Position numbers and translations under genes: made by a program
The notes under the pieces: model-generated
Database searches by the model: none
The model's input: only the letters and a program-made list of their open reading frames with translations
Told to the model about the DNA's origin: nothing
Source of the DNA: Victivallis sp. Marseille-Q1083
Lineage (GTDB): Bacteria; Verrucomicrobiota; Lentisphaeria; Victivallales; Victivallaceae
Assembly: GCF_903645315.1 (NCBI RefSeq)
Contig: NZ_CAHJXL010000002.1
Location: forward strand, 826,017 to 890,016
DNA length: 64,000 nt
Direction: 5' to 3'
In this document: one piece after another, positions 52,186 through 64,000 of the stretch
Numbering within the stretch: the first letter of the stretch is position 1
How the letters are laid out: each line of letters opens with the position of its first letter

Positions 52186-53175
52186 ATGACAAAACGATGG
52201 ACTTTCGCTTTTCTGATGATGGCCGCTTTGGCGGCCGGAACGACGTTGTCGGCGGCCGAGGAAGCTGACGGCAATACCGGCGAGACGGTTCGCTCCCGGC
52301 GGAATGAGGCGGGAGATGTTACCGGAGAATGGGCGGCGCTGCAGGCTGCTTTGAAGGAAAAATATCCGGAAAAGTTCGCTGAAATTGAGAAGTTGCAGAA
52401 TACCAACTTATTTGCCGCGTTGGAGGCGATGCGGTCTCTGGCGGAAAGTTCCGGTATGGAACTGCCGAGAATGATGCCGCCCGGCCGGGGAGAGCGCGGT
52501 CAACGGCGCGGCGGTCCCGGCGGCGACGGTATGAACTTCGGTCCCGGCATGATGCCGCCGGGAGGCAACATGGAATTCGGCGGCCGGGGAGAACGCGGTC
52601 AACGGCGCGGCGGTCCCGGCGGCGCCGGCATGAGAGGGGGCCCCGGTATGGGGTTCGGTCCCGGCGGGATGGGCATGGGCGGCAGTCCGCAACAACAGGT
52701 TGAAAATGAATTGAAGGAGCAATATCCGGAGGAATTTGCCGAAATTGAGGAATTGCGCCAGGAAGCGAACCGCAAATTACAGGACCTGGCGGAAAAGGCC
52801 GGCGTGAAATTGCCGGTTTCCCCGCAGGACCGGATGCAGCAGATCATGGCGCTGCGGGAGCAATATCCGGAGGAATTTGCCGAAATCGAGGAATTGCGCC
52901 GGAGCAATCCGCGGGCGGCGATGGAAAAAATGACGGAATTGGCGTCCAAGGAAGGAATCGATTTGTCGTTTGGCCGCAATCGCGGCAGTGCCGGCAATTC
53001 CAGCCGGGAAGGGACGACGCCCCGCAATAATCAAGCGGCGCAGTTGCGCCGGAAGCTGCTGGAACAGTATCCGGACAAGATGGCCGAGATCGACGCATTG
53101 CGCAAAACCGATGCGGCGGCGGCCCGCAAGCAATTGCAGGAGTTGATCAAGCAGTACGAAGAAGACAATCAGTGA
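52186..53175 (+). CDS. Secreted repeat protein with YPE-x-FAEIE motifs and Gly/Arg-rich linkers
   Basis: I do not recognise this 329-residue protein. Residues 1-24 are a signal peptide (Ala-rich, ending LSAAEE). Four helical repeats of about 35-40 residues share the core Tyr-Pro-(Glu/Asp)-x-(Phe/Met)-Ala-Glu-Ile. They occur near 57-90, 178-210, 225-255 and 290-325. Between the first two lies a Gly/Met/Pro/Arg-rich stretch with two copies of GRGERGQRRGGPGG. The DNA of repeats two and three is almost identical, suggesting recent duplication. It is periplasmic or extracellular. It lies directly upstream of the T2SS genes in the same direction, so it may be a partner or substrate of that system, but that is inference from position. 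Confidence 0.8.
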   Translation: MTKRWTFAFLMMAALAAGTTLSAAEEADGNTGETVRSRRNEAGDVTGEWAALQAALKEKYPEKFAEIEKLQNTNLFAALEAMRSLAESSGMELPRMMPPGRGERGQRRGGPGGDGMNFGPGMMPPGGNMEFGGRGERGQRRGGPGGAGMRGGPGMGFGPGGMGMGGSPQQQVENELKEQYPEEFAEIEELRQEANRKLQDLAEKAGVKLPVSPQDRMQQIMALREQYPEEFAEIEELRRSNPRAAMEKMTELASKEGIDLSFGRNRGSAGNSSREGTTPRNNQAAQLRRKLLEQYPDKMAEIDALRKTDAAAARKQLQELIKQYEEDNQ

Positions 53176-53254: not shown

Positions 53255-54466
53255 ATGAGATTTACAACCAACCGTGAATACAATATCCTGATTTTTGACG
53301 CGACGACGCTCAAGGGATGTCATTTTCGCCGCCGCGGCAGTCAGTGGAAAGTGGATCGTTACGGCTGTGTTGCGATTGATTCGAACAATCCGGCCACCGC
53401 CTGGAAGTCATTGCTGAAAACGCTGGGCGGCGGGGCGGAGTGCATGTTGATTGTCGGAGGCGCCCTGGAAGGCGGTACTTTCTTTCAATGTACGACGCTG
53501 GAGCTGCCGCTGAAATCATTGAAAGATGCCCTGGAATTTGAACTGCCGCAATACCTGCTGCAGGTACCGGAGGATTGTCGGCTGCAGTTCACCGTGCAGT
53601 CGGCGGCGGACGGCAATTGCCGGGTGAATGTCTATGCGTTTCCAGCGGCCGCTTTGCATCAGCTCGCCGCAGTATTGACCCAGAGTCACTGCCGGGCGGA
53701 CGAATTCATCTACCCGCTGCTGGCATTGGACGAAGAGTCGGAAGCGGAAGCGGTTTTTCTGCCGGAAGTCGAACCGGATTATTATTTTCAGCGGGGAACC
53801 TGGCACCGCAAAAGCGAGCAGAAGATGGTTGACTACCGGAACCGAAAACATTTCATACTGCCGGACGATGGTGTTTTTGAGCTGCAGTGTTACCGCAGTT
53901 GCCTGTTTCTGGCCGAGCTGGTTTTGGGGGAACGGTTCAAAAGTCAGCAGGCCGGAATCCGGAGCTTGCCGAAATCGTTGCGGCCGCGCCGTTATCGGGC
54001 GCAGTTGCGCTTGACGGCGCTGTTGGTGATTTTGTTGTTCGGCAATTTCCTCTGGGGCAAATGGCAGAATTATGCGAAATGGCGGAGCGAGTATCGCCAG
54101 TTGACATCCGAAACGGCCGGCCTGGTCCAGAAAACTGACGTTCTGCAAAGCCGGCTGCGCGGTATGGATAAGGAACTGAAAGAGTTGACCAGAGTGGTCG
54201 ATTTGAAAGCCGGCGAACTGGAAGTGGTGGATAAACTGGCGGCGTTGAGTACGGTGCTGCCGTCGGATATGATGGTCTCCGGTTTGCGCTGGAGTGAAAA
54301 AAGTCTTGAGCTGCAATTGCAGACGGAAGCGGAAAATCCCGATTTGGCGGCGATCCTGCGTCCGTTGACCTTCTGGCGCATCGAACAATTGCAGCAGCGG
54401 CGCATCAACGATTCGGTCATTGCGGTGACGCTGAGCCTGGCACCGGTGGAGGCGGTCAAACCATGA
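53255..54466 (+). CDS. gspL: Type II secretion GspL-like inner-membrane protein
   Basis: The protein has 403 residues. The N-terminal part (about 1-240) resembles the actin-like cytoplasmic domain of GspL/PilM (NILIFDATTLKG, LELPLKSLKDALEFELPQYL). A membrane helix lies near 250-268 (LRLTALLVILLFGNFLWG). A coiled-coil-like and small periplasmic domain follow, as in GspL and PilN. It would link the ATPase GspE to the membrane platform. It overlaps the next gene by ATGA. No promoter is obvious between the hairpin at 53187-53218 and the ATG. The family match is remote and supported mostly by gene order. Confidence 0.75.
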   Translation: MRFTTNREYNILIFDATTLKGCHFRRRGSQWKVDRYGCVAIDSNNPATAWKSLLKTLGGGAECMLIVGGALEGGTFFQCTTLELPLKSLKDALEFELPQYLLQVPEDCRLQFTVQSAADGNCRVNVYAFPAAALHQLAAVLTQSHCRADEFIYPLLALDEESEAEAVFLPEVEPDYYFQRGTWHRKSEQKMVDYRNRKHFILPDDGVFELQCYRSCLFLAELVLGERFKSQQAGIRSLPKSLRPRRYRAQLRLTALLVILLFGNFLWGKWQNYAKWRSEYRQLTSETAGLVQKTDVLQSRLRGMDKELKELTRVVDLKAGELEVVDKLAALSTVLPSDMMVSGLRWSEKSLELQLQTEAENPDLAAILRPLTFWRIEQLQQRRINDSVIAVTLSLAPVEAVKP

Positions 54467-55083
54467 GAAAAGGGAATATGAAAATGTTTGCCGCCACTGA
54501 TCGCGGCAAGCTGGCGCTGGCCGGAGGTGCCCTGCTGGTCAGTTGGCTGTTTCTGCTGTGGTATTTCAGCGGCGACTTGGCCAAATTGTTTCCCGGCTCG
54601 GCCGGGTTGACGACCGCCAGGGAGGGGCGGCAGAAGGCGCAGGAGGCGTTTACCGTGCAGCAGACCAGAATGCGGGAAGCGGAGGCGCTGAAAAGACGCT
54701 ATCTGCAGCAGTTGGAAACCTACTGGCAGACGGACCGGGACGGGGCGGTGGAGACCGTGATGCGCCAACTGGTCGGCACTGCGGCGCAACAGCAGGATTT
54801 GAAATTGAACAGTCTCGGAACGGTGCGGACTTCCCGGATCAACGCCGAACTGTATTATGCCGAATTGGATATTGCCGTGGTGGATTCGCTGGAAAAAATC
54901 GTCGGATTCCTGAAGGCATTGGAACAGACGGAGCCGCGGCTGGCCTGGCGGCGGCTGGACTTGCGGCTGGCCGGGCCGGGCGACACTGCGACGATGAATT
55001 TCAACGGTTCGCTTCGGGTGATCGGTTTCGACGGCAAGTTGCCGGAGAGCAAACGAAATGAAACAACCGGAGCGAAGCAATGA
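54463..55083 (+). CDS. gspM: GspM-like inner-membrane component
   Basis: The protein has 206 residues with one membrane helix near 19-36 (LALAGGALLVSWLFLLWYF) and a short cytoplasmic N-terminus. A coiled coil (about 50-80) and a small ferredoxin-like periplasmic domain follow (LKLNSLGTV...LYYAELDIAVVDSLEKIVGFLKALEQTEPRL). This is the layout of GspM and PilO, partners of GspL. It overlaps both flanking genes by ATGA. The assignment rests on topology and position more than on sequence. Confidence 0.7.
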   Translation: MRKGNMKMFAATDRGKLALAGGALLVSWLFLLWYFSGDLAKLFPGSAGLTTAREGRQKAQEAFTVQQTRMREAEALKRRYLQQLETYWQTDRDGAVETVMRQLVGTAAQQQDLKLNSLGTVRTSRINAELYYAELDIAVVDSLEKIVGFLKALEQTEPRLAWRRLDLRLAGPGDTATMNFNGSLRVIGFDGKLPESKRNETTGAKQ

Positions 55084-56051
55084 AAGTCGGTTTGATTATA
55101 TTGAATCTTTTTCTGGTCTGTTATCTGTTGTGGAGCGTCGCGTCCAATGTCCGGCCGGCGGCGCCGGCGGTCGAATATCAGCTGGTCAAACCGGACCCCG
55201 GCCGGAAGAGCGCCGCAAGCGCCAGGGGAACAAGCGGCAATCCGGATGCCTGGCGGGTGGATGCCGATAATATTGTCGGCAACAATATTTTCGATCCGGC
55301 GCGTTGTCCGAACGCGACCTTTGCCCGCGGCCGCGACAGCCGGGTCGAAATGACGCTGGTCGGCACCTTTCAAATCGCTTCCTGCGTCGGTGCCGTGATC
55401 CTGCAGAAAAATGCCGAACGCAGCCGCGAGGGCTTCCCGTTCGGCGGTATGGGATTGATGGGTGGTCCGCCGGGAGGCGGGATGCCGGGTGGAATGCCTG
55501 GCGGCGGGATGCCGGGGATGCCCCCGGGAGGAATGCCGCCCGGCGGTCCGGGAATGATGGGCGGGGCGGCGGCCGGAAATCCTTCCCGCGGCAACAACGG
55601 CAGCCGGAGCCGCAATCGCGGCAACTTTCGCTCCCGCTTCGGAACTGCCCAGAATAACGGCCAGCCGGGCGGGGAAAGTGAAACGACCGCGCAGGTCTAC
55701 AAACAGTATGTCCGGCTTGGCGAAACGATGGATAACGGCTATACGTTGTCGGAAGTGGAGCGCGACCGGGTGGTCCTGACCCGCGGCAGTGAGAAATTGG
55801 AACTGGAATTGGTGGAAGCGTCAAAAGGAGTTCAGCCGGCGACGGCGTCTTCCGGCGCCAGCAGCAACGCCAATCCGGTGCAGCAGTTGGAGCGGATGCA
55901 GCGGTTTCAGATGATGTCGCAATTTCGCATGATGCAGATGATGGAACGTTCGATGCGCAATCAAGGCGGCGGCAACCAGACCGGCAATCGCGGCGGCAAT
56001 CAGGGGAATGCCGGCGTCCCCGGCGGCCCTCCTGGCGGCGGCAGACGATAA
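55080..56051 (+). CDS. gspC: GspC-like protein with Gly/Met/Pro-rich insert
   Basis: The protein has 323 residues. An N-terminal membrane anchor (about 3-22) is followed by the segment DADNIVGNNIFDPARC and MTLVGTFQ, resembling the homology region of GspC that binds the secretin. A low-complexity insert of about 40 residues, mostly Gly, Met and Pro (about 120-165), and a basic Asn/Arg/Gly segment follow. Then comes a beta-rich segment (YVRLGETMDNGYTLSEVERDRVVL). The tail is Gln/Met- and Gly-rich. The order and ATGA coupling to gspM support the call. The insert resembles the linker of the secreted repeat protein at 52186. Confidence 0.65.
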   Translation: MKVGLIILNLFLVCYLLWSVASNVRPAAPAVEYQLVKPDPGRKSAASARGTSGNPDAWRVDADNIVGNNIFDPARCPNATFARGRDSRVEMTLVGTFQIASCVGAVILQKNAERSREGFPFGGMGLMGGPPGGGMPGGMPGGGMPGMPPGGMPPGGPGMMGGAAAGNPSRGNNGSRSRNRGNFRSRFGTAQNNGQPGGESETTAQVYKQYVRLGETMDNGYTLSEVERDRVVLTRGSEKLELELVEASKGVQPATASSGASSNANPVQQLERMQRFQMMSQFRMMQMMERSMRNQGGGNQTGNRGGNQGNAGVPGGPPGGGRR

Positions 56052-56091: not shown

Positions 56092-58365
56092 ATGAAAAAG
56101 CAAAGCAATCGTAAGAGACATTGGTTAAACCACGGCGGCAAAATGATCGGAATCGGTACGGCCGGGATGTTGCTGTGTTCCTGCAGCTGGTTCAATCAGG
56201 AGCCGGAATCGACTGTGCCGACCGGTGAAAATCGTTTTGATTTCCTGCGTCATGAGGAGAATATCTCGGCGCCTGCCGAGCGGGAGACGATGGAGCAGGA
56301 GTTGGTCAAGGCGAAGTTGGATGAAGGTGACGAGCTGAGTGATGAACGGTTCAAATTGCTGACCGGTGCGGCGAAAACCGAAAATACACCGGCGCGAGGC
56401 GATGACAGCGAGCGGTTTTATGAAGATTTTATCCTGACGAATGCCGATGAAGAACTGCCGGTGTCACTGGTCTTTAACAGCGCGCCGCTGTTGGACGTGC
56501 TGCCGGCCTTCGCCGATGTGCTTGGCTTCAATTTTCTGGCCGACAGTGATTTAAAAAATGTCGTGACGTTGAACCTCAATTCGACGATGACCCGGCGGGA
56601 GTTGTGGGATACGTTCGACAAGATGCTCTATCTGTCCGGCGCCGGGGTTATGGTCGATGTCGATGGTTTGCTGCGGGTGATGCCGCTGTCCAAGCTGGCG
56701 ATGCAGCCGGATGCCAGAATGGCGCACAACGGCAATGGCGAAGTTTATTATTATGCGTTGAAAAATACGACCGCCAAGGATGTTCTGAATCAATTGAAAC
56801 CCTTCCTCGGCCGGGACAGTGTCGTCGTTGAACTGACACAGCCGAATGCCATCTTGCTGAGCGACGACCGCAATAATATGCCGAAGATCAAACAATTGCT
56901 GGAAATCATCGACCAGAGCCGCCGCGGCAACTGGCCGCGCGCCATCATCAAATGTCGCAATGTGTTGCCGAGCAAGCTGACCGAAGAGTTGCAGAGTGTA
57001 TTGCCGGTATTGGGCTTCAGCGTCGTTCGCACCACCGATACGACGAACGGCAATGTTGACGATACCAGCGGCGCGATTTTGCTGGCCGGCATCGACCGGC
57101 TGCAGATTGTCGTTGCCTCGGCGGCGACCGAGGAAGCGATTCGGGAAATCCGGGATTGGGTCGAGATTCTCGACAGTTCCGATTCCATCGATCAGGAACG
57201 TATTTTCGTTTATAAGGTGGCGCACAACAAGGCGACACAGTTGACCGAGGCCTTGTCGGTGATCTTCGATACCCAGGGGTCGACGCTGACGGTCGATACC
57301 AGCGGCGACGACCGGACTTCGCAGGTGAATTCCAATTACAACAGTCGATCCGGCAGTTCTTCCGATACCGATACCAACCTCAAAACCGACCGTAACTCCA
57401 ACGTATTCGATACGCCGGTCAAAGTGTTTGCCGACGGGGTGCTCAACCGGTTGGTGGTCCGGACGACGCCGCGGGCATACGCTTCGGTCAAAGCGTTGCT
57501 CGACCGGCTGGATGTCGTACCGGCTCAGGTGTTGCTTCAGGTGCTGGTGGTGGAGGTGACGCTGAACAAATCGACCGAATTCGGCCTGGAATTTTCTTAC
57601 GCCGACGATGGGGGCAACGCCGGCACTTTGCTGGGAACCAATTACTCCAGCCTTAACCCGTATGGCGACACTCCGGATGATGGTTTTCGTTTTCTGATCA
57701 ATGACCCGGACGATCCTGAAAAGAAGTTCGGTTATATTAAAGCGTTGGCCGGCAACAATGCCTTGAAAGTGATTTCCAGTCCGCAACTGGTGGTTTCCAG
57801 CCACACCGAAGCGCAGATTTCGGTTGGCAGCCAGGTGCCGGTCATCTCGTCGGCAATCACCAATACCTCGTCGGAAGGCTCGCTGATCCAGAATTACAAT
57901 TATCAGGATACCGGTATCATCCTGACCATCACGCCGGAAATCACCAGTACGGATCTGATTGCTCTTGAAGTCGTGCAGACGTTGTCGACCGCGATGACCA
58001 ACACCATCAGCAAATCGATTGATTCGCCGATCATTCAGGAGCGGACTTTGCAAACCTCGATGACGATCGCCAACGGACGGACAATGATTCTCGGCGGTTT
58101 GATCCAGGAACAGAAGAGCGATGATTTGGAAACGATTCCGATCATCGGTGATATTCCGATCCTGAACCGGTTGTTCGGCAACACCAGCAGTTCGACGGAG
58201 CGGACGGAAATTCTGGTGATGATCACCGGATATGTCGTCGATGAAAAGAGCCCGGTCGAAGATATGATCAAGCGCTACAATGACGCGATCAAAGCGTTGA
58301 ACGAGTTTGAAAATACGATGGGCGACCGCCTGGAAGCCGCCACGATCAAGGATCCCGTGCAATGA
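56092..58365 (+). CDS. gspD: Type II secretion secretin, lipoprotein type
   Basis: This is a 757-residue outer-membrane channel. The signal peptide ends in Leu-Cys-Ser-Cys31, a plausible lipobox, so the secretin may be lipidated itself. An N0/N1-type domain with a STN-like fold lies near 120-220 (LPVSLVFNSAPLLDVLPAFADVLGFNF), followed by further N domains. The C-terminal secretin domain shows KVISSPQLVVSSHTEAQISVG, QVPVISS, GIILTITPEI, RTMILGGLIQEQ and IPIIGDIPILNRLFG, all standard. Its stop overlaps gspE by ATGA. GspD forms the ring through which folded proteins leave. Confidence 0.95.
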   Translation: MKKQSNRKRHWLNHGGKMIGIGTAGMLLCSCSWFNQEPESTVPTGENRFDFLRHEENISAPAERETMEQELVKAKLDEGDELSDERFKLLTGAAKTENTPARGDDSERFYEDFILTNADEELPVSLVFNSAPLLDVLPAFADVLGFNFLADSDLKNVVTLNLNSTMTRRELWDTFDKMLYLSGAGVMVDVDGLLRVMPLSKLAMQPDARMAHNGNGEVYYYALKNTTAKDVLNQLKPFLGRDSVVVELTQPNAILLSDDRNNMPKIKQLLEIIDQSRRGNWPRAIIKCRNVLPSKLTEELQSVLPVLGFSVVRTTDTTNGNVDDTSGAILLAGIDRLQIVVASAATEEAIREIRDWVEILDSSDSIDQERIFVYKVAHNKATQLTEALSVIFDTQGSTLTVDTSGDDRTSQVNSNYNSRSGSSSDTDTNLKTDRNSNVFDTPVKVFADGVLNRLVVRTTPRAYASVKALLDRLDVVPAQVLLQVLVVEVTLNKSTEFGLEFSYADDGGNAGTLLGTNYSSLNPYGDTPDDGFRFLINDPDDPEKKFGYIKALAGNNALKVISSPQLVVSSHTEAQISVGSQVPVISSAITNTSSEGSLIQNYNYQDTGIILTITPEITSTDLIALEVVQTLSTAMTNTISKSIDSPIIQERTLQTSMTIANGRTMILGGLIQEQKSDDLETIPIIGDIPILNRLFGNTSSSTERTEILVMITGYVVDEKSPVEDMIKRYNDAIKALNEFENTMGDRLEAATIKDPVQ

Positions 58366-59966
58366 GTGTTTCGGATTACAGAGAAGCGAACCGGGCGTTG
58401 CAGACGTTGCTGCGGGCCGAGTTTCCCGACTATCCCGAGGCGCCGGACCACCCGGCGGCCCGGGCGGCCGACCGGCAGTTGCTGGACAGCGGCAGCTTGA
58501 CGGAACGGCAGTTGCTGGAGTTCTATGCCGCCGCTTATGAACTGGATTTGCCGGAGGAAGAGGAGTTGGCCCAGCCGGCAATTTATCCGGGCATGCCGCT
58601 GGAATACTGCAACGCCAACTGCTGTCTGCCTTATGAATGGGATGACGAGACGCTCACTTTTCTGATTGCCGATCCGTATGATCTGGAGCAATTGAGCTAT
58701 CTGGTGAAGCATACCTGGAACCGGCGGTGTGCGTTTCGGCTGGTGCGGCGCACTTTCCTGGAGCGGATGCTGAGTAAACTGCAGAGCCAGGAGCAGAATG
58801 AAGCGGAAACCGCCGGCGATGTCGAGGATGAAACTACTTTGCGTACGATGGCCGGGGAAGCGCGGATCGTCCGGTTGGTGAACGATATTTTCACCCGGGC
58901 CATCGAGTTGGAGGCCAGCGACATCCATATCGAACCCGGTGAAGAGATGGTAACGGTCCGCTGCCGGGTGGATGGCGTATTGACAGAGATTCTCAGTTGT
59001 CCCTTGAACCAGTTTCCGGCGATCGCCTCCCGCATCAAATTGCTCGGCGGGCTCAACATTGCCGAGAGCCGTCTGCCGCAGGACGGCCGGACCAACATAC
59101 AGCTCGGCCGCGAGGAGTTGGATCTGCGGATCAGTACGATTCCGATTCTGACCGGGGAGAGCATCGTCCTGCGTTTGTTGAATCAGGAAGCGCTTTCGTT
59201 CGACTTGAAGACGCTCGGCATGTCGTCGGAGTTGCTGGAACAATTTCACCGGCTCATCCAAATTCCGCACGGGATGATTCTGGTGGTCGGACCGACCGGT
59301 TCGGGGAAAACCACGACGTTGTACAGCGTGATCAGCCAATTGAACGATCAGCGCAAAAAGATCATCACCATCGAAGACCCGGTGGAATACCGGATGCCGG
59401 GGCTTTGCCAGATGCAGGTCAACCCGAAAATCGGCGTCAGCTTCGCCGCCGGCTTGCGCCATATCGTCCGCCAGGACCCGGATATCATCCTGGTCGGTGA
59501 AATCCGCGACCGGGAAACGGCGGATATTGCCATCAATGCGGCTTTGACCGGCCACCTGGTGTTGAGCACGTTGCATACCAATGACGCGGTCGGGGCGGTG
59601 ACCCGGCTGCTGGATATGGGGATGGAAAATTTTCTGGTGTCGTCGGCGTTGTTCGGCGTTTTGTCGCAACGGTTGGTCCGCAAACTTTGCCCGGTCTGCC
59701 ACGGCAGCGGCTTCGATGCCGCCTATACCGGCAACCGCTGCAAGCGGTGCAACGGCACCGGTTACAAAGGGCGCAGCGGCATCTATGAATTGCTGGTCAT
59801 GAACGATGCGCTGCGCGAAGCGGTCAACGGCAACCGTTCCAGTTCGGAACTGGAGGCGATCGCGATTCAAAATGGCATGCGAACGCTGCAGCAGGACGGT
59901 ATGGCCAAAGTGGCAGCCGGCATCACTACCGCGACGGAAGTCAATCGTTCCACCGCCGAGTTGTAA
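58362..59966 (+). CDS. gspE: Type II secretion ATPase GspE
   Basis: The cytoplasmic AAA-like secretion ATPase has 534 residues. After an N1-type N-terminal domain it shows ASDIHIEPG near 185-193, Walker A VGPTGSGKTTT near 309-319, the Asp box ITIEDPVEYRMPG, Walker B VGEIRDRETAD and the His box LSTLHTNDA. A tetracysteine zinc motif (CPVCHGSGF...CKRCNGTGYKGR) follows, as in GspE but not in many PilT proteins. It powers pseudopilus assembly. Gene order and the 12-base gap to gspF support the operon. Confidence 0.97.
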   Translation: MSVSDYREANRALQTLLRAEFPDYPEAPDHPAARAADRQLLDSGSLTERQLLEFYAAAYELDLPEEEELAQPAIYPGMPLEYCNANCCLPYEWDDETLTFLIADPYDLEQLSYLVKHTWNRRCAFRLVRRTFLERMLSKLQSQEQNEAETAGDVEDETTLRTMAGEARIVRLVNDIFTRAIELEASDIHIEPGEEMVTVRCRVDGVLTEILSCPLNQFPAIASRIKLLGGLNIAESRLPQDGRTNIQLGREELDLRISTIPILTGESIVLRLLNQEALSFDLKTLGMSSELLEQFHRLIQIPHGMILVVGPTGSGKTTTLYSVISQLNDQRKKIITIEDPVEYRMPGLCQMQVNPKIGVSFAAGLRHIVRQDPDIILVGEIRDRETADIAINAALTGHLVLSTLHTNDAVGAVTRLLDMGMENFLVSSALFGVLSQRLVRKLCPVCHGSGFDAAYTGNRCKRCNGTGYKGRSGIYELLVMNDALREAVNGNRSSSELEAIAIQNGMRTLQQDGMAKVAAGITTATEVNRSTAEL

Positions 59967-59978
59967 GGAATTGTCGTT

Positions 59979-61196
59979 ATGGGCTTGTACAAATATCTGG
60001 CCGCCAGCAAAGGCGAGGCGCCGCATGAGATCCTGGTCGAAGCGGACAACAGTTCGGAAGCGCTGGGAAAATTGCGCAGCCGCCGGATTGTGCCGATCAA
60101 GTTCTGCGGCGAAGCGAGCATGAACGGCAACGGCGGTTTTTCCTGGCGGCGGAGCAAGGTGAATACTTACGAATTCACCCGCCAGTTGGCTCCGTTGCTG
60201 GAGTCGTTCATCCCTTTGGAAAAAGCACTGGGAATCATTGCCGAGAGCGCCACGGTTCCGGAACAGAAAGCTTTCGTCACCTCGTTGCGGCAGGGGTTGC
60301 ACGAGGGGAAAAAATTTTCCGAACTGGTTCGTTCGCATGGTTCTCTGTTTCCGGGGTATTACGCCAACCTGATCGAGAGCGGCGAAGAAACCGGCTGTTT
60401 GCCGGAGGTGGTCAACCAGCTTTATAAGTTCATGGGCGAGACCAAGGAGTTGAAGGACTTCATCGTCTCCAGCTCGATTTATCCGGCGGCGATCCTGGCG
60501 GTGACGATCACGGTGACAATTCTGCTGTTTACAATTTTCGTACCTCGTTTTGCCAAGATTTTTATCGATATGAACCGGCCGATGCCCGGCAGCATGGAAT
60601 TTCTGCTCGGCGTCAGTGCGTTTGCCTTCTGGGCCTGGTGGTTGATTCCGCTGGCGCTGATTTTGATTTGGCTGGGTTTGAAACGAGCTCTCGGCGAGGA
60701 GGCTTTGCGGTTTCAGATTCATCAGTTGCTGTTGCGGGTGCCGCTGCTTTGCCGGATCATCATCGATCTGGAAATGTGCAAATATATCCGGACGCTAGCA
60801 ATTTTGATCGCCAATCACGTCGAAATCATCCGGACGGTGAAAATTTCCGGGCGGATTATCCGCAATCCGGTCATCCGGACCGGTTTCGAAGACATCGGCA
60901 GGAAATTGAAAGGCGGAGAAAAATTGTCCGCCGCTTTGAGCGGCAACCGATTCGTGCCGGCGGAAATGGTGCCGATGCTTCGGGTGGGCGAGGAGTCCGG
61001 AACCGTCGGGGAAATGCTGGGGCGGATCGCCAGCCATCTGGAGAATGACACCCGCTTGAAAATCAAGCATTTGCTCAGTTTGTTCGAGCCGGCGGTCATC
61101 GTCTTTCTGGCGTTGATGGTCTTGGTCGTCGTCGTATCGATTTTTGTCGCGATGATGGAAATCAATTCAATAAATCAGGGAGGATCACAATTATGA
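59979..61196 (+). CDS. gspF: Type II secretion inner-membrane platform protein GspF
   Basis: This 405-residue protein has two GspF domains (about 70-190 and 275-395), each followed by helices. FTRQLAPLLESFIPLEKAL and ETGCLPEVVNQLYKF begin the first; the second has GGEKLSAALSGNRFVPAEMVPMLRVGEESGTVGEML. The three membrane helices lie near 167-190, 210-235 and 375-398. It is the platform for pseudopilus assembly, working with GspE and GspL. Its stop overlaps gspG by ATGA. Confidence 0.96.
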   Translation: MGLYKYLAASKGEAPHEILVEADNSSEALGKLRSRRIVPIKFCGEASMNGNGGFSWRRSKVNTYEFTRQLAPLLESFIPLEKALGIIAESATVPEQKAFVTSLRQGLHEGKKFSELVRSHGSLFPGYYANLIESGEETGCLPEVVNQLYKFMGETKELKDFIVSSSIYPAAILAVTITVTILLFTIFVPRFAKIFIDMNRPMPGSMEFLLGVSAFAFWAWWLIPLALILIWLGLKRALGEEALRFQIHQLLLRVPLLCRIIIDLEMCKYIRTLAILIANHVEIIRTVKISGRIIRNPVIRTGFEDIGRKLKGGEKLSAALSGNRFVPAEMVPMLRVGEESGTVGEMLGRIASHLENDTRLKIKHLLSLFEPAVIVFLALMVLVVVVSIFVAMMEINSINQGGSQL

Positions 61197-61615
61197 AAAA
61201 ACGCAGGTTGACAGGACGGAATTTTACTTTGATCGAGGTGGTGGTGGTCATCATCATCCTGGTAACGCTGGCTTCCATCGCCACGCCGCTGTATTTGAAT
61301 AATTTGAAAAAAGCCAATGTCGGTGCCGCCAAAACCCAGCTCAAACTGCTGGCCGATGCGTTGACCAATTACCGGCTTGACGTCGGCGAGTATCCGGATA
61401 CTTCGGCCGGGTTGCAGGCGCTGATCGAAAATGTCGACCAGAAGGAAAAATGGGAAGGGCCGTATTTGCAGCCGAATGTGCCGAAAGATCCGTGGGGCAA
61501 CGAATACATTTATATTTATCCCGGAGAACACCGCGATTACGATTTGTATAGTTACGGCGCTGACGGCCAGCCGGGCGGTACCGGCGAAAATGCCGATATC
61601 ACCAACTGGGAATGA
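61193..61615 (+). CDS. gspG: Major pseudopilin GspG
   Basis: The pseudopilin has 140 residues. The N-terminal leader KKRRLTGRN is followed by FTLIEVVVVIIILVTLASIATP, the membrane helix with Glu5. The residue before the cleavage site is Asn instead of the usual Gly. The C-terminal globular domain has the GspG calcium-loop hallmarks (YPDTSAGLQAL, GPYLQPNVPKDPWGNEY, YDLYSYGADGQPGGTGENADI). The major pseudopilin polymer drives secretion. It is closely followed by gspH, I, J and K. Confidence 0.95.
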   Translation: MKKRRLTGRNFTLIEVVVVIIILVTLASIATPLYLNNLKKANVGAAKTQLKLLADALTNYRLDVGEYPDTSAGLQALIENVDQKEKWEGPYLQPNVPKDPWGNEYIYIYPGEHRDYDLYSYGADGQPGGTGENADITNWE

Positions 61616-61621
61616 AAATCG

Positions 61622-62131
61622 ATGGGGGCGAACCGCAAATTTTTTACGCTGGTGGAAATGGTGGTGGTCGTCGCGATCATCGCGGTGAGCACCTCGCTGG
61701 CGGTTGCCACGTTCCGCGGCGGTTCGTCGACCCAGTTGTTGAGTCGGGCCGGCTGGCAGTTCGAGGAATTCTGTGCCCGCGTCCGTTTTCAGGCGATGGA
61801 AACCGGTCGTGACCGTCTGGTGGTCTATGAGCCGGACAAACGCTGTTTCCGGGGAAAATATGCCGATGAAACGGAGCCCGGCGGTGATGCCGATGAGAAG
61901 ACGTTGCAGCGTTGGGCTTTGCCGGAAGAATTTACTTTTAATGCCGAACAAGTTGCGGTTGAACCGGCGTTGGAAGCGGAAATGCCGCTGTTCCGTTTTT
62001 TTGCGGACGGCAGCGCTTCGGGCAAACGCCGGCTGGTGTTCAAATATCGTGAACGGGCACGTTACTTTATCATTTCGCCGCTGACCGGCCGGTTGCGCCA
62101 GAGCGAAGAGGCGCCGGAGGAAATGCCATGA
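61622..62131 (+). CDS. gspH: Minor pseudopilin GspH
   Basis: The protein has 169 residues. The leader MGANRKF precedes FTLVEMVVVVAIIAVST, a pseudopilin helix with Glu5. The residue before the cleavage site is Phe. The beta-rich globular part is variable, as in GspH, and the first helix plus position define the call. It overlaps gspI by ATGA. Confidence 0.8.
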   Translation: MGANRKFFTLVEMVVVVAIIAVSTSLAVATFRGGSSTQLLSRAGWQFEEFCARVRFQAMETGRDRLVVYEPDKRCFRGKYADETEPGGDADEKTLQRWALPEEFTFNAEQVAVEPALEAEMPLFRFFADGSASGKRRLVFKYRERARYFIISPLTGRLRQSEEAPEEMP

Positions 62132-62538
62132 AAACTCATTGGCGCTTTACCTTGCTGGAAGTAGTGATTGCGTTGGCGATTCTGACCGTTTCGCTGACCG
62201 GGCTGCTGCAGGTGCTGATCTCCTCCCAGGAGCGTCTGGCCAAAAGCATCGATCAATGGCGCCAAATGCATATGCTGATGCAGGCGGCGGAATATTACCT
62301 GCTTCAGAGTGAAGACCCGGACGATATTTCCACCGATTTTTTCCCGTACAAGGACTATAAGATCAACTGCTATTACGAGGAGGCGGAAAATCTGCCGGAG
62401 GATTACGACAATCAACTCGGCCAGTTGCCGCTGCGCAGTTGCATCATCGAGCTGGTGCGCCGGAAAGACGGCGCGTTGATCGATAAATTAATCATCGACA
62501 GGATCAGTTATGAGTCGGCGACAGCGACAACCCAGTAG
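62128..62538 (+). CDS. gspI: Minor pseudopilin GspI
   Basis: The protein has 136 residues. The leader MKTHWR precedes FTLLEVVIALAILTVSLTGLLQ, typical of GspI (LLEV-ALAI). The residue before the cleavage site is Arg. The C-terminal part is short and acidic. It overlaps gspJ by 29 bases. GspI starts the tip complex with GspJ and GspK. Confidence 0.85.
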   Translation: MKTHWRFTLLEVVIALAILTVSLTGLLQVLISSQERLAKSIDQWRQMHMLMQAAEYYLLQSEDPDDISTDFFPYKDYKINCYYEEAENLPEDYDNQLGQLPLRSCIIELVRRKDGALIDKLIIDRISYESATATTQ

Positions 62539-63187
62539 GCGCGCCTTTACGCTGGTGGAGATGGTGGTGGCGATGGCGATTCTGCTGCTCGTAGCCCTGA
62601 TCATCGGTACCGCTTCTTCGACGATTTACAACGGTTGGAATCGTTCGGAGCGCATCACCCGTCAGTTGATGGATTATCAGGCGATCGACCAGGTGATGGA
62701 TCTGAATGTTCGCAATATGATTCCGTTTCGCTGGCAGGATGACAGCCTGGAGAATCGTTTCGTCTTTGCCGGAGAAAATGACTCGCTGCACTTTACGACG
62801 CTGCGGCGTTGTTATGACGGCGATGACGGGGCTTTGCTGTTTGTCCGCCTGAAGTTGGAGGATGACGCCCTGGTGGCGGAATATTCGCCTTATCCGCGCC
62901 TGCCGTGGCTGGAGGACGGCGAGCAGAAATACAGTCGCGAAGTGCTGACCGGGCAGGTGAAATCAGTCGCGTTTCTTTACGCCGAACAGGGATCCGGCGA
63001 TGAGATCGAGTGGCTTGATGCATGGGAGGAGGAGGATCATGAAGCGATCCCGATGGCCATTCAACTGACCGTCGAGTGGCAGGATGGTCGGAAAGAGTGT
63101 TGGCTCCGTCGCACCGCCGGCAGCAGCACGCACAGCGTTTTCGGCTATCGCCAGACGGCGCAGACGATTACCGGAGCCGGCAATTGA
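62510..63187 (+). CDS. gspJ: Minor pseudopilin GspJ
   Basis: The protein has 225 residues. The leader MSRRQRQPSRRA precedes FTLVEMVVAMAILLLVALII, a GspJ-like helix. The residue before the cleavage site is Ala. The globular domain has RQLMDYQAIDQVMDLNVRNMIPF, in the place of the GspJ helix, and a beta-rich end. GspJ, GspI and GspK form the pseudopilus tip. The gspK start follows by 17 bases. Confidence 0.85.
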   Translation: MSRRQRQPSRRAFTLVEMVVAMAILLLVALIIGTASSTIYNGWNRSERITRQLMDYQAIDQVMDLNVRNMIPFRWQDDSLENRFVFAGENDSLHFTTLRRCYDGDDGALLFVRLKLEDDALVAEYSPYPRLPWLEDGEQKYSREVLTGQVKSVAFLYAEQGSGDEIEWLDAWEEEDHEAIPMAIQLTVEWQDGRKECWLRRTAGSSTHSVFGYRQTAQTITGAGN

Positions 63188-63204: not shown

Positions 63205-64000
63205 ATGAATTCCGACTGCCGGCAATCCGGTTCCGCCTTGATTGCAGTGCTTTGTCTGATCTTTACTGCCGGGATGCTGATTACCGCTGTAGCGGCGATG
63301 TCCCAGTACAATACGGTCAGCCTGGCTGCTCACACCGCTTTGCAGCGTTCTTTTTATATCAACGAAGGCTGTGCCAGCCGGATTCAGTGGCTGATCGAAG
63401 CGGACCGCACTCTGTATGCGACGGCGATTCTGGGCGATATGGATTACAGTGACTATGCCGAGGATCGTTATCTGGCCGACGGCGTGATTCATCAACTGGA
63501 TTATTATGGTACGCCGGTGGAGTTCGTCATCTACGATGCGGCGAGCGGTTATGATTTCAGTGCCCAGAATTATCTGAACAGTCTGGAATGGATGAAAGTC
63601 GGTTTTGAACGGGACACCGAGTGGACGGACCGCTTGACGCAGTTCGGCAACCGGATTGGCGATTATATCGATTCGGATGACGACCTGGCGGTCGACGGCA
63701 TGGAATACGGCGAGTATGAAGAACTCGGCAGGGAGCCGCTGCCGCGCAATGCGGCGATTCAGTTCCGGGAGGAACTGTTCTATCTGCCGGATGCGGTGGA
63801 GCTGTTGCCGCCGGACAGCGATGGCCGCTTGACGCTTTACCGGTTGATTCCGCCGGAAAATACTTCCGACTTGAGCGGCACGCCCAGCCTTTTCAGTGCT
63901 TCGCCACTGTTGTTGATGAATTATTGCAATCTGACCGAAGAGGAAGCCGGCAAAGTCATGGAGGCGCTGGAACTGTGGCGGCGGGAGCGAATTCAGCTTT
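63205..64000 (+). CDS. gspK: Minor pseudopilin GspK, 5' part (runs off window)
   Basis: 265 codons are open to the window end from the ATG at 63205. AAAGGAGG lies nine bases upstream. The N-terminus MNSDCRQSG precedes SALIAVLCLIFTAGMLITAVAAM; as usual for GspK, there is no Glu at position 5. Here the residue before the cleavage site is Gly. The segment YIDSDDDLAVDGMEYGEYEELG matches the GspK region with Asp-rich and Gly-x-Glu signatures. GspK caps the pseudopilus tip. The remaining C-terminus is outside the window. Confidence 0.88.
   Translation, partial: MNSDCRQSGSALIAVLCLIFTAGMLITAVAAMSQYNTVSLAAHTALQRSFYINEGCASRIQWLIEADRTLYATAILGDMDYSDYAEDRYLADGVIHQLDYYGTPVEFVIYDAASGYDFSAQNYLNSLEWMKVGFERDTEWTDRLTQFGNRIGDYIDSDDDLAVDGMEYGEYEELGREPLPRNAAIQFREELFYLPDAVELLPPDSDGRLTLYRLIPPENTSDLSGTPSLFSASPLLLMNYCNLTEEEAGKVMEALELWRRERIQL

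Follow-up and report, generated by a model that had tools for sequence, protein, structure and literature searches.

In the available part of the review PMC4471445, the leader of bacterial prepilins is described as invariably ending in Gly, archaea excepted, and as 6 to 26 residues long for the pilins covered; cleavage by prepilin peptidases takes place at the cytoplasmic face, directly in front of the hydrophobic helix, after which PilD adds a methyl group to the newly formed N-terminus (PMC4471445 and PMC3584216, each in its available part). For archaea, the same part of the review reports many exceptions to the Gly at position -1, and the FlaK substrates of Methanococcus voltae need a residue on the mature side, Gly at +3, according to the available part of PMC4390842. 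That part of the review, like the name of the family model TIGR02532 (GFxxxE), takes Gly at -1 as a hallmark of bacterial prepilins. Here we describe the type II secretion (gsp) operon of Victivallis sp. Marseille-Q1083, in which the pseudopilins that start their helix with the motif FTLxE (Phe at +1, Glu at +5) lack this mark; the operon lies in a stretch of 64,000 nucleotides (contig NZ_CAHJXL010000002.1, positions 826,017 to 890,016), referred to as the window.

Compared with the bacterial class III signal peptide, as set out in the available part of PMC4471445, the substrates described here are alike in the short basic leader, Phe at +1, Glu at +5, the hydrophobic helix and the type II secretion genes; they differ in that Gly is the exception throughout Lentisphaeria. 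Their peptidase resembles PilD/GspO in both domains, the two catalytic Asp, the GxGD motif and the four Cys in CxxC pairs, and also in that a single gene was found for the full set of pseudopilins in the genome. It differs in that the enzyme of the class belongs to a separate, long-branched clade with residues changed around both Asp, has an insert between the Asp in many relatives outside the order of the window, and has presumably lost the requirement for Gly or Ala at -1, as judged from its substrates. Archaeal class III peptides and the peptidases FlaK and EppA, as far as the available parts of the sources describe them, are similar in their exceptions to -1 Gly and in a requirement on the mature side. 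Here, in contrast, the enzyme belongs to the bacterial PilD type and carries a methylation domain, and the substrates are of the FTLxE type. PibD is a further archaeal class III peptidase.

Taken together, it appears probable that GspG to GspJ of the window are ordinary type II secretion pseudopilins, like about 170 further FTLxE sites of the genome, that the peptidase of the class can do without Gly or Ala at -1 given Phe at +1 and Glu at +5, and that GspG to GspJ are cut before Phe by the one recognizable bifunctional prepilin peptidase of the genome.

The residue at -1 in the operon, the genome and the class

The residue preceding FTLxE is Asn in GspG, Phe in GspH, Arg in GspI and Ala in GspJ, and GspK has Gly at -1; these assignments of the initial annotation were confirmed by direct reading. 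Phe at +1, Glu at +5, the hydrophobic stretch and the basic leader are all present in the pseudopilins of the window. The canonical Gly or Ala at -1 is lacking in GspG, GspH and GspI and is present in GspJ; since Ala is within the usual Gly/Ala range of the phylum, three of the four pseudopilins are truly unusual. The simultaneous change in four pseudopilins pointed out in the initial annotation is thus real with that reduction, but it is a feature of the class and not of the operon.

FTLxE sites were counted in the 4.8-Mb genome (window included) with a DNA pattern for FTL-x-E plus three hydrophobic residues, and the reversed pattern served as background. A total of 177 sites were found against a background of 0; Gly is at -1 in 4 of these, and 136 have a codon of the class Lys/Asn/Arg/His/Gln/Ser(AGY). 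This genome-wide survey had been proposed in the initial annotation, and the large share of -1 Gly which, combined with an ordinary PilD, was to speak against an altered rule was not found. Residues were read by letter at 99 distinct sites, i.e. the 30 best of 150 scored family matches (198 candidates), 60 of the remaining 120 (every second in order, three swapped where the site was already included), extra sites in the same stretches, and the window; a looser count gave 102, including at least one spurious site (antisense frame). The residues at -1 comprise Lys (28), Asn (16), Ser (15), Arg (12), Gly (4), Ile (4), Asp (3), Ala (3), His (3), Leu (3), Gln (2), Thr (2), and Phe, Trp, Cys and Val (one each); the 30 best matches are skewed to small residues, and in the systematic 60 Gly occurs once. 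Given this spread over four frequent and 12 other residues, a new fixed residue at -1 was rejected. Lys and Arg together make up 71% at -2 and 40% at -1 in the 99-site sample, so position -1 does not simply mirror its neighbor, and it leans to Asn and Ser.

Among the relatives of the window's GspE, 11 of 15 loci are recorded under Victivallis, Victivallales, Lentisphaeria or Lentisphaerae, three as 'uncultured bacterium', and one is a distant Desulfurivibrionaceae; because the named relatives fall there, the class of the sampled genomes is taken to be Lentisphaeria. In 53 genomes of this class, Gly was found at 191 of 3562 FTLxE sites and the Lys/Asn/Arg/His/Gln/Ser codon class at 1828; a second draw of 59 class genomes, which overlaps the first, contributed 29 new ones, and for the resulting 82 genomes the count is 257 of 5473. 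In the rest of the phylum (102 genomes; 95 with sites, seven without), in contrast, Gly is found at 698 of 912 sites and the codon class at two, and the non-Gly sites sampled there, from eight genomes, are Ala in 20 of 20 cases. The share of Gly per genome reaches at most 3 of 10 in the class and is at least 1 of 4 outside (median 0.80), hence single small genomes overlap. The sampled class genomes contain 3 to 283 FTLxE sites each. Two class genomes from other families were likewise read letter by letter, at 23 and at 21 sites, of which two in the second genome are doubtful because of stop codons within the helix; Arg is commonest at -1 (9 and 7), and Pro, Trp, Tyr, Met and Phe are found as well. 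Chance or codon bias was rejected in view of the background of 0 in the own genome and the sharply different 102 sister genomes, and a peculiarity of this operon was rejected because the loss of Gly is genome- and class-wide. A literature search, mostly without subscription papers, found no report on a class-wide loss of -1 Gly.

These counts also largely refute an artefact of start codons, frame or motif register, which we regard as very improbable: the start codons of the leaders are unproven, and the leaders are short (57 of 95 with five or fewer residues to the nearest Met), but the -1 codon adjoins FTLxE regardless of the start codon, the reversed-pattern background is 0 to 3 per genome, and the pattern is consistent over the 82 genomes.

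Orthologous gspG to gspJ sites were compared at 14 Victivallales loci, with four genes from every locus and a search that required Phe or Met at +1 and Glu at +5. Phe at +1 and Glu at +5 are found in 56 of 56 sites and Gly at -1 in 12, the other residues being Ser, Cys, Arg, Lys, Pro, Tyr, Phe, His, Thr, Val, Gln, Asn, Asp and Ala; GspG orthologs have Gly, Ser, Cys, Tyr or Arg, and GspJ orthologs have Pro, Lys, Arg, Tyr, Phe, Asp, Asn or Gly. A variable -1 next to constant +1 and +5 at orthologous genes is the pattern of a constraint lost at one position, and the change at -1 looks mainly like such a loss and not like a new fixed residue.

The FTLxE families are very large, with 177 sites in the own genome (G000) and 283 and 249 in the relatives G006 and G009. 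A second cluster of five prepilin-like genes (L012 and L025, G000:C1 about 1050150-1053900) has His, Gly, Gly, Arg and Trp at -1; it accounts for two of the genome's four Gly sites and includes a gene that matches a GspG domain weakly.

The prepilin peptidase

The genome contains a single recognizable A24 peptidase above the Pfam cut-off (L031, positions 1156-1986, 276 amino acids), with the domains A24_N_bact (PF06750, 120.5 bits) and Peptidase_A24 (PF01478, 67.6 bits), two Asp and a GxGD motif; it is of the PilD type (A24A in MEROPS). Its methylation domain has four Cys (46, 49, 71 and 74), with Gly69-Lys70 before the third; a role in the methylation domain is ascribed to a Gly plus basic residue at this place in the available part of PMC3584216. 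A weak Peptidase_A24 match of 16.7 bits (L032, G000:C2:832690-832845), within a frame of 898 amino acids, probably belongs to another membrane protein, and a weak match of the same kind was found within an 894-amino-acid frame of the relative G009.

An A24 match (E up to 0.001) was obtained in 59 of 59 class genomes searched, 56 of them above the cut-off. When 59 class proteins were aligned with 25 two-domain proteins from outside the class, every one of the 59 class rows had the first catalytic Asp, the four Cys and the N-x-P motif, and 58 had the Asp of GxGD; the exception (L171) is truncated by the end of its contig. Removal of the FTLxE leaders by a different protease is therefore judged to be quite unlikely: the A24 peptidase has diverged, and an unrelated enzyme would escape the search used, but the match is in every class genome, the methylation-domain Cys are in all aligned rows, and the cut-site motif is canonical apart from -1.

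Differences between the class and the other peptidases cluster by both Asp (positions 131, 136, 140, 194-204 and 212) and in a loop (98-109); they also occur elsewhere, in keeping with a diverged clade. The loop, with four extra residues, is the most divergent stretch of the class peptidase and probably lies on the far side of the membrane. Near the active site, the best candidate for a diagnostic residue is an Arg four residues past the first Asp, which 37 of 59 class rows have and none of the 25 plus four comparators; both Escherichia coli K-12 comparators have Gln where the class favors Arg. In the peptidase tree, the class forms one clade (a quick tree; Shimodaira-Hasegawa-like approximate likelihood ratio support 85), with path lengths from the common ancestor of 1.72 (median) versus 1.15 for the others. 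The idea that the peptidase was acquired from outside the phylum finds no support, since the class rows join the others of the phylum, in a test that is weak given the quick tree, the support of 85 and four long-branched outgroup rows. A sequence search of the PDB found no relative of the peptidase, the single match being a chance one (E 0.41).

The comparison of active-site regions suggested in the initial annotation thus has two outcomes: the domains, the catalytic Asp and the four Cys are ordinary, and the enzyme belongs to a class-specific clade with longer branches. For the altered -1 rule or processing that it envisaged, the 4 of 177 Gly genome-wide and the diverged clade are in favor, and the ordinary domains and catalytic residues are not. 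The set of substrates suggests a loss of Gly specificity in the class peptidase.

The two catalytic Asp are unusually far apart in 29 of 59 class peptidases, all from outside the order of the window; the usual spacing, in 25 peptidases of other classes, is 68-78 residues. A long spacing of 172-209 residues was observed in 18 rows, with at least 100 extra residues (L167, L168, L170, L172-L182, L184-L186 and L200), and an intermediate spacing of 101-115 residues in 11 rows, with about 30-43 extra (L169, L183, L190, L191 and L193-L199); the cut-off L171 was excluded. The longer insert looks soluble. Furthermore, a second, short A24 peptidase (frames of 170-213 amino acids) that has no CxxC pairs and may belong to a Tad-like system was found in several genomes of the class (L033, L035, L037, L041, L044-L046, L049, L051, L056, L057, L059 and L060) and outside it (L083, L086 and L090); none was found in the own genome.

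GspK and a proposed recognition on the mature side of the cut

GspK has Gly at -1 in 19 of 21 operons, and the FTLxE pseudopilins of the same operons have it at 13 of 81 sites (Fisher p 3e-10; the loci are related and not independent, which this value ignores). This Gly occurs in the window, at 12 of 14 Victivallales loci and in all six further operons of other families with a recognized GspK (L273, L275, L276, L277, L278 and L289), and the contrast spans several families of the class; with the Victivallales loci left out, the counts are 7/7 and 1/25 (p 2e-6). These further operons were drawn from 20 stretches, of which the 14 lacking a recognized GspK (several of them not gsp operons) are left uncounted. 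GspK was identified mostly by position and N-terminus; family-model scans of two of these 21 genes, both from relatives, gave matches to the GspK model NF037980 far below its cut-off. In L278 and L289, GspK was located by its motif farther downstream of gspJ and not as the next gene. GspK lacks Glu at +5; its residue at +1 is small or aliphatic in 20 of 21 cases, the exception being Phe in L278. The conservation of Gly in 19 of 21 operons suggests that the need for Gly is set by the +1 side.

A shift of recognition to the mature side should make Phe at +1 stricter, and the absence of an excess of Ile, Met or Val at this position in the class fits that expectation. With the motif otherwise the same, these residues were counted 17 times in the class versus a reversed-pattern background of 32, and 35 times versus 51 in the second draw (none with Gly); in the other classes of the phylum the count is 45 versus 20, with a quarter as many FTLxE sites, and the pilus and type II secretion gene content differs between the groups. 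Phe at +1 and Glu at +5 are present in 60 of 60 sampled family matches, which were chosen by a profile favoring both residues.

We propose that the class peptidase may grip its substrate by Phe at +1 and the start of the helix. Recognition would have shifted to the mature (prime) side of the cut, the residue at -1 would thereby have become nearly neutral, and leaders could have shortened to forms like MKKK. GspK, with no Glu at +5 and nearly always no Phe at +1, would lack this handle, would remain dependent on Gly at -1 and would keep it for that reason. That the peptidase of the class ancestor swapped its -1 (S1) rule for a +1 (S1') rule, such that only GspK-type substrates need Gly, is in our estimate an even bet; under the S1' rule, Phe at +1 with Glu at +5 alone would license cleavage, and nearly any residue would be allowed at -1, including Lys, Arg, Pro, Tyr and Trp. 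We infer from the substrate and enzyme sequences that cleavage is between X and Phe (X/F), by this peptidase and with a changed specificity, and that Gly of GspK is kept for cleavage.

Several points weigh against a peptidase that has given up -1 Gly in favor of Phe at +1. Two GspK orthologs (L104 and L106, apparently close relatives) have Asn at -1; the GspK of L278 has Gly plus Phe at +1, so the split between GspK and the FTLxE proteins is not perfect; and a frame in L274, MKTKHNY/MTMIE, has Met at +1 and no Gly. Gly is commoner in the operon pseudopilins (13/81) than in all class sites (257/5473) and may still be favored there. There is no single diagnostic residue in the class peptidase, and the 25 comparison peptidases, being the best-scoring full-length ones outside the class, are a biased sample.

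The strongest alternatives are a globally relaxed peptidase and FTLxE proteins that are mostly uncut. A peptidase relaxed at -1 for all substrates, with Gly of GspK kept for another reason, e.g. helix or tip geometry, would accommodate the two Asn GspK and the Met frame of L274; it is rather unlikely, as GspK has its Gly in the window, in nearly all Victivallales loci and in every further operon with a recognized GspK. We consider it somewhat less likely again that most FTLxE proteins of the class are left uncleaved and anchored in the membrane by their N-terminus, with the peptidase kept for GspK and the few prepilins with -1 Gly. Such a split would agree with Gly being kept in GspK and few others and not in most FTLxE proteins, and with a -1 residue that partly resembles the preceding basic stretch. 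However, Phe at +1 and Glu at +5 persist in the sampled matches (favored by the profile) and in the gspG to gspJ orthologs, a charged residue would not be expected to persist in a plain anchor, gspG to gspJ have lost Gly as well, and the class has no excess of Ile, Met or Val at +1 as in the other classes, which points to a stronger use of Phe; in addition, major pseudopilins are not known to assemble without cleavage.

The gsp operon and its meaning for prepilin recognition

The genes of the operon are listed in Table 1. Family models and gsp gene order identify GspG to GspJ as type II secretion pseudopilins, and the Pfam models for the secretin, GspE and GspF matched above their cut-offs. 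A family-model scan of the window's GspK fragment (from the second codon) gave no match. Low-complexity sequence rich in Gly, Met and Pro was observed at 52186-53175, in an unnamed protein 5' of the operon, and at 55080-56051, in the GspC-like protein.

Table 1. Genes of the gsp operon in the window (a slash precedes position +1; bit scores and cut-offs are those of the models named)
Gene	Position	Strand	N-terminus	Evidence
gspL-like	53255-54466	+		sub-cut-off matches to PF12693, PF10741 and PF11356 across the gspL-, gspM- and gspC-like genes; gene order
gspM-like	54463-55083	+		as for gspL-like
gspC-like	55080-56051	+		as for gspL-like
gspD, secretin	56092..58365	+		PF00263, PF03958, PF21305; TIGR02517 sub-cut-off
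gspE, ATPase	58362..59966	+		PF00437 448.7 bits; TIGR02533 sub-cut-off
gspF	59979..61196	+		PF00482 154.7 bits; TIGR02120 sub-cut-off
gspG, major pseudopilin	61193..61615	+	MKKRRLTGRN/FTLIEVVVV	TIGR01710 154.1 bits (cut-off 88.85); PF08334
gspH, minor pseudopilin	61622..62131	+	MGANRKF/FTLVEMVVV	sub-cut-off TIGR01708 and XpsH matches; operon order
gspI, minor pseudopilin	62128..62538	+	MKTHWR/FTLLEVVIA	sub-cut-off TIGR01707 match; operon order
gspJ, minor pseudopilin	62510..63187	+	MSRRQRQPSRRA/FTLVEMVVA	PF11612 33.0 bits (cut-off 28); PF07963
gspK, cut by window end	63205..64000	+	MNSDCRQSG/SALIAVLCL	ATG at 63205; no Phe at +1, no Glu at +5

A class with a standard-looking peptidase and up to hundreds of non-Gly substrates represents a natural experiment on recognition by the enzyme, with GspK as a built-in control within the operon. 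To our knowledge, the S1 pocket of bacterial prepilin peptidases has not been defined so far, and a comparison of the peptidases of this class with those of its sister classes could help to locate it. Prediction tools that demand Gly would overlook most prepilins of Lentisphaeria. If true, the swap from S1 to S1' freed 3 to 283 FTLxE sites per genome for minimal leaders such as MKKK.

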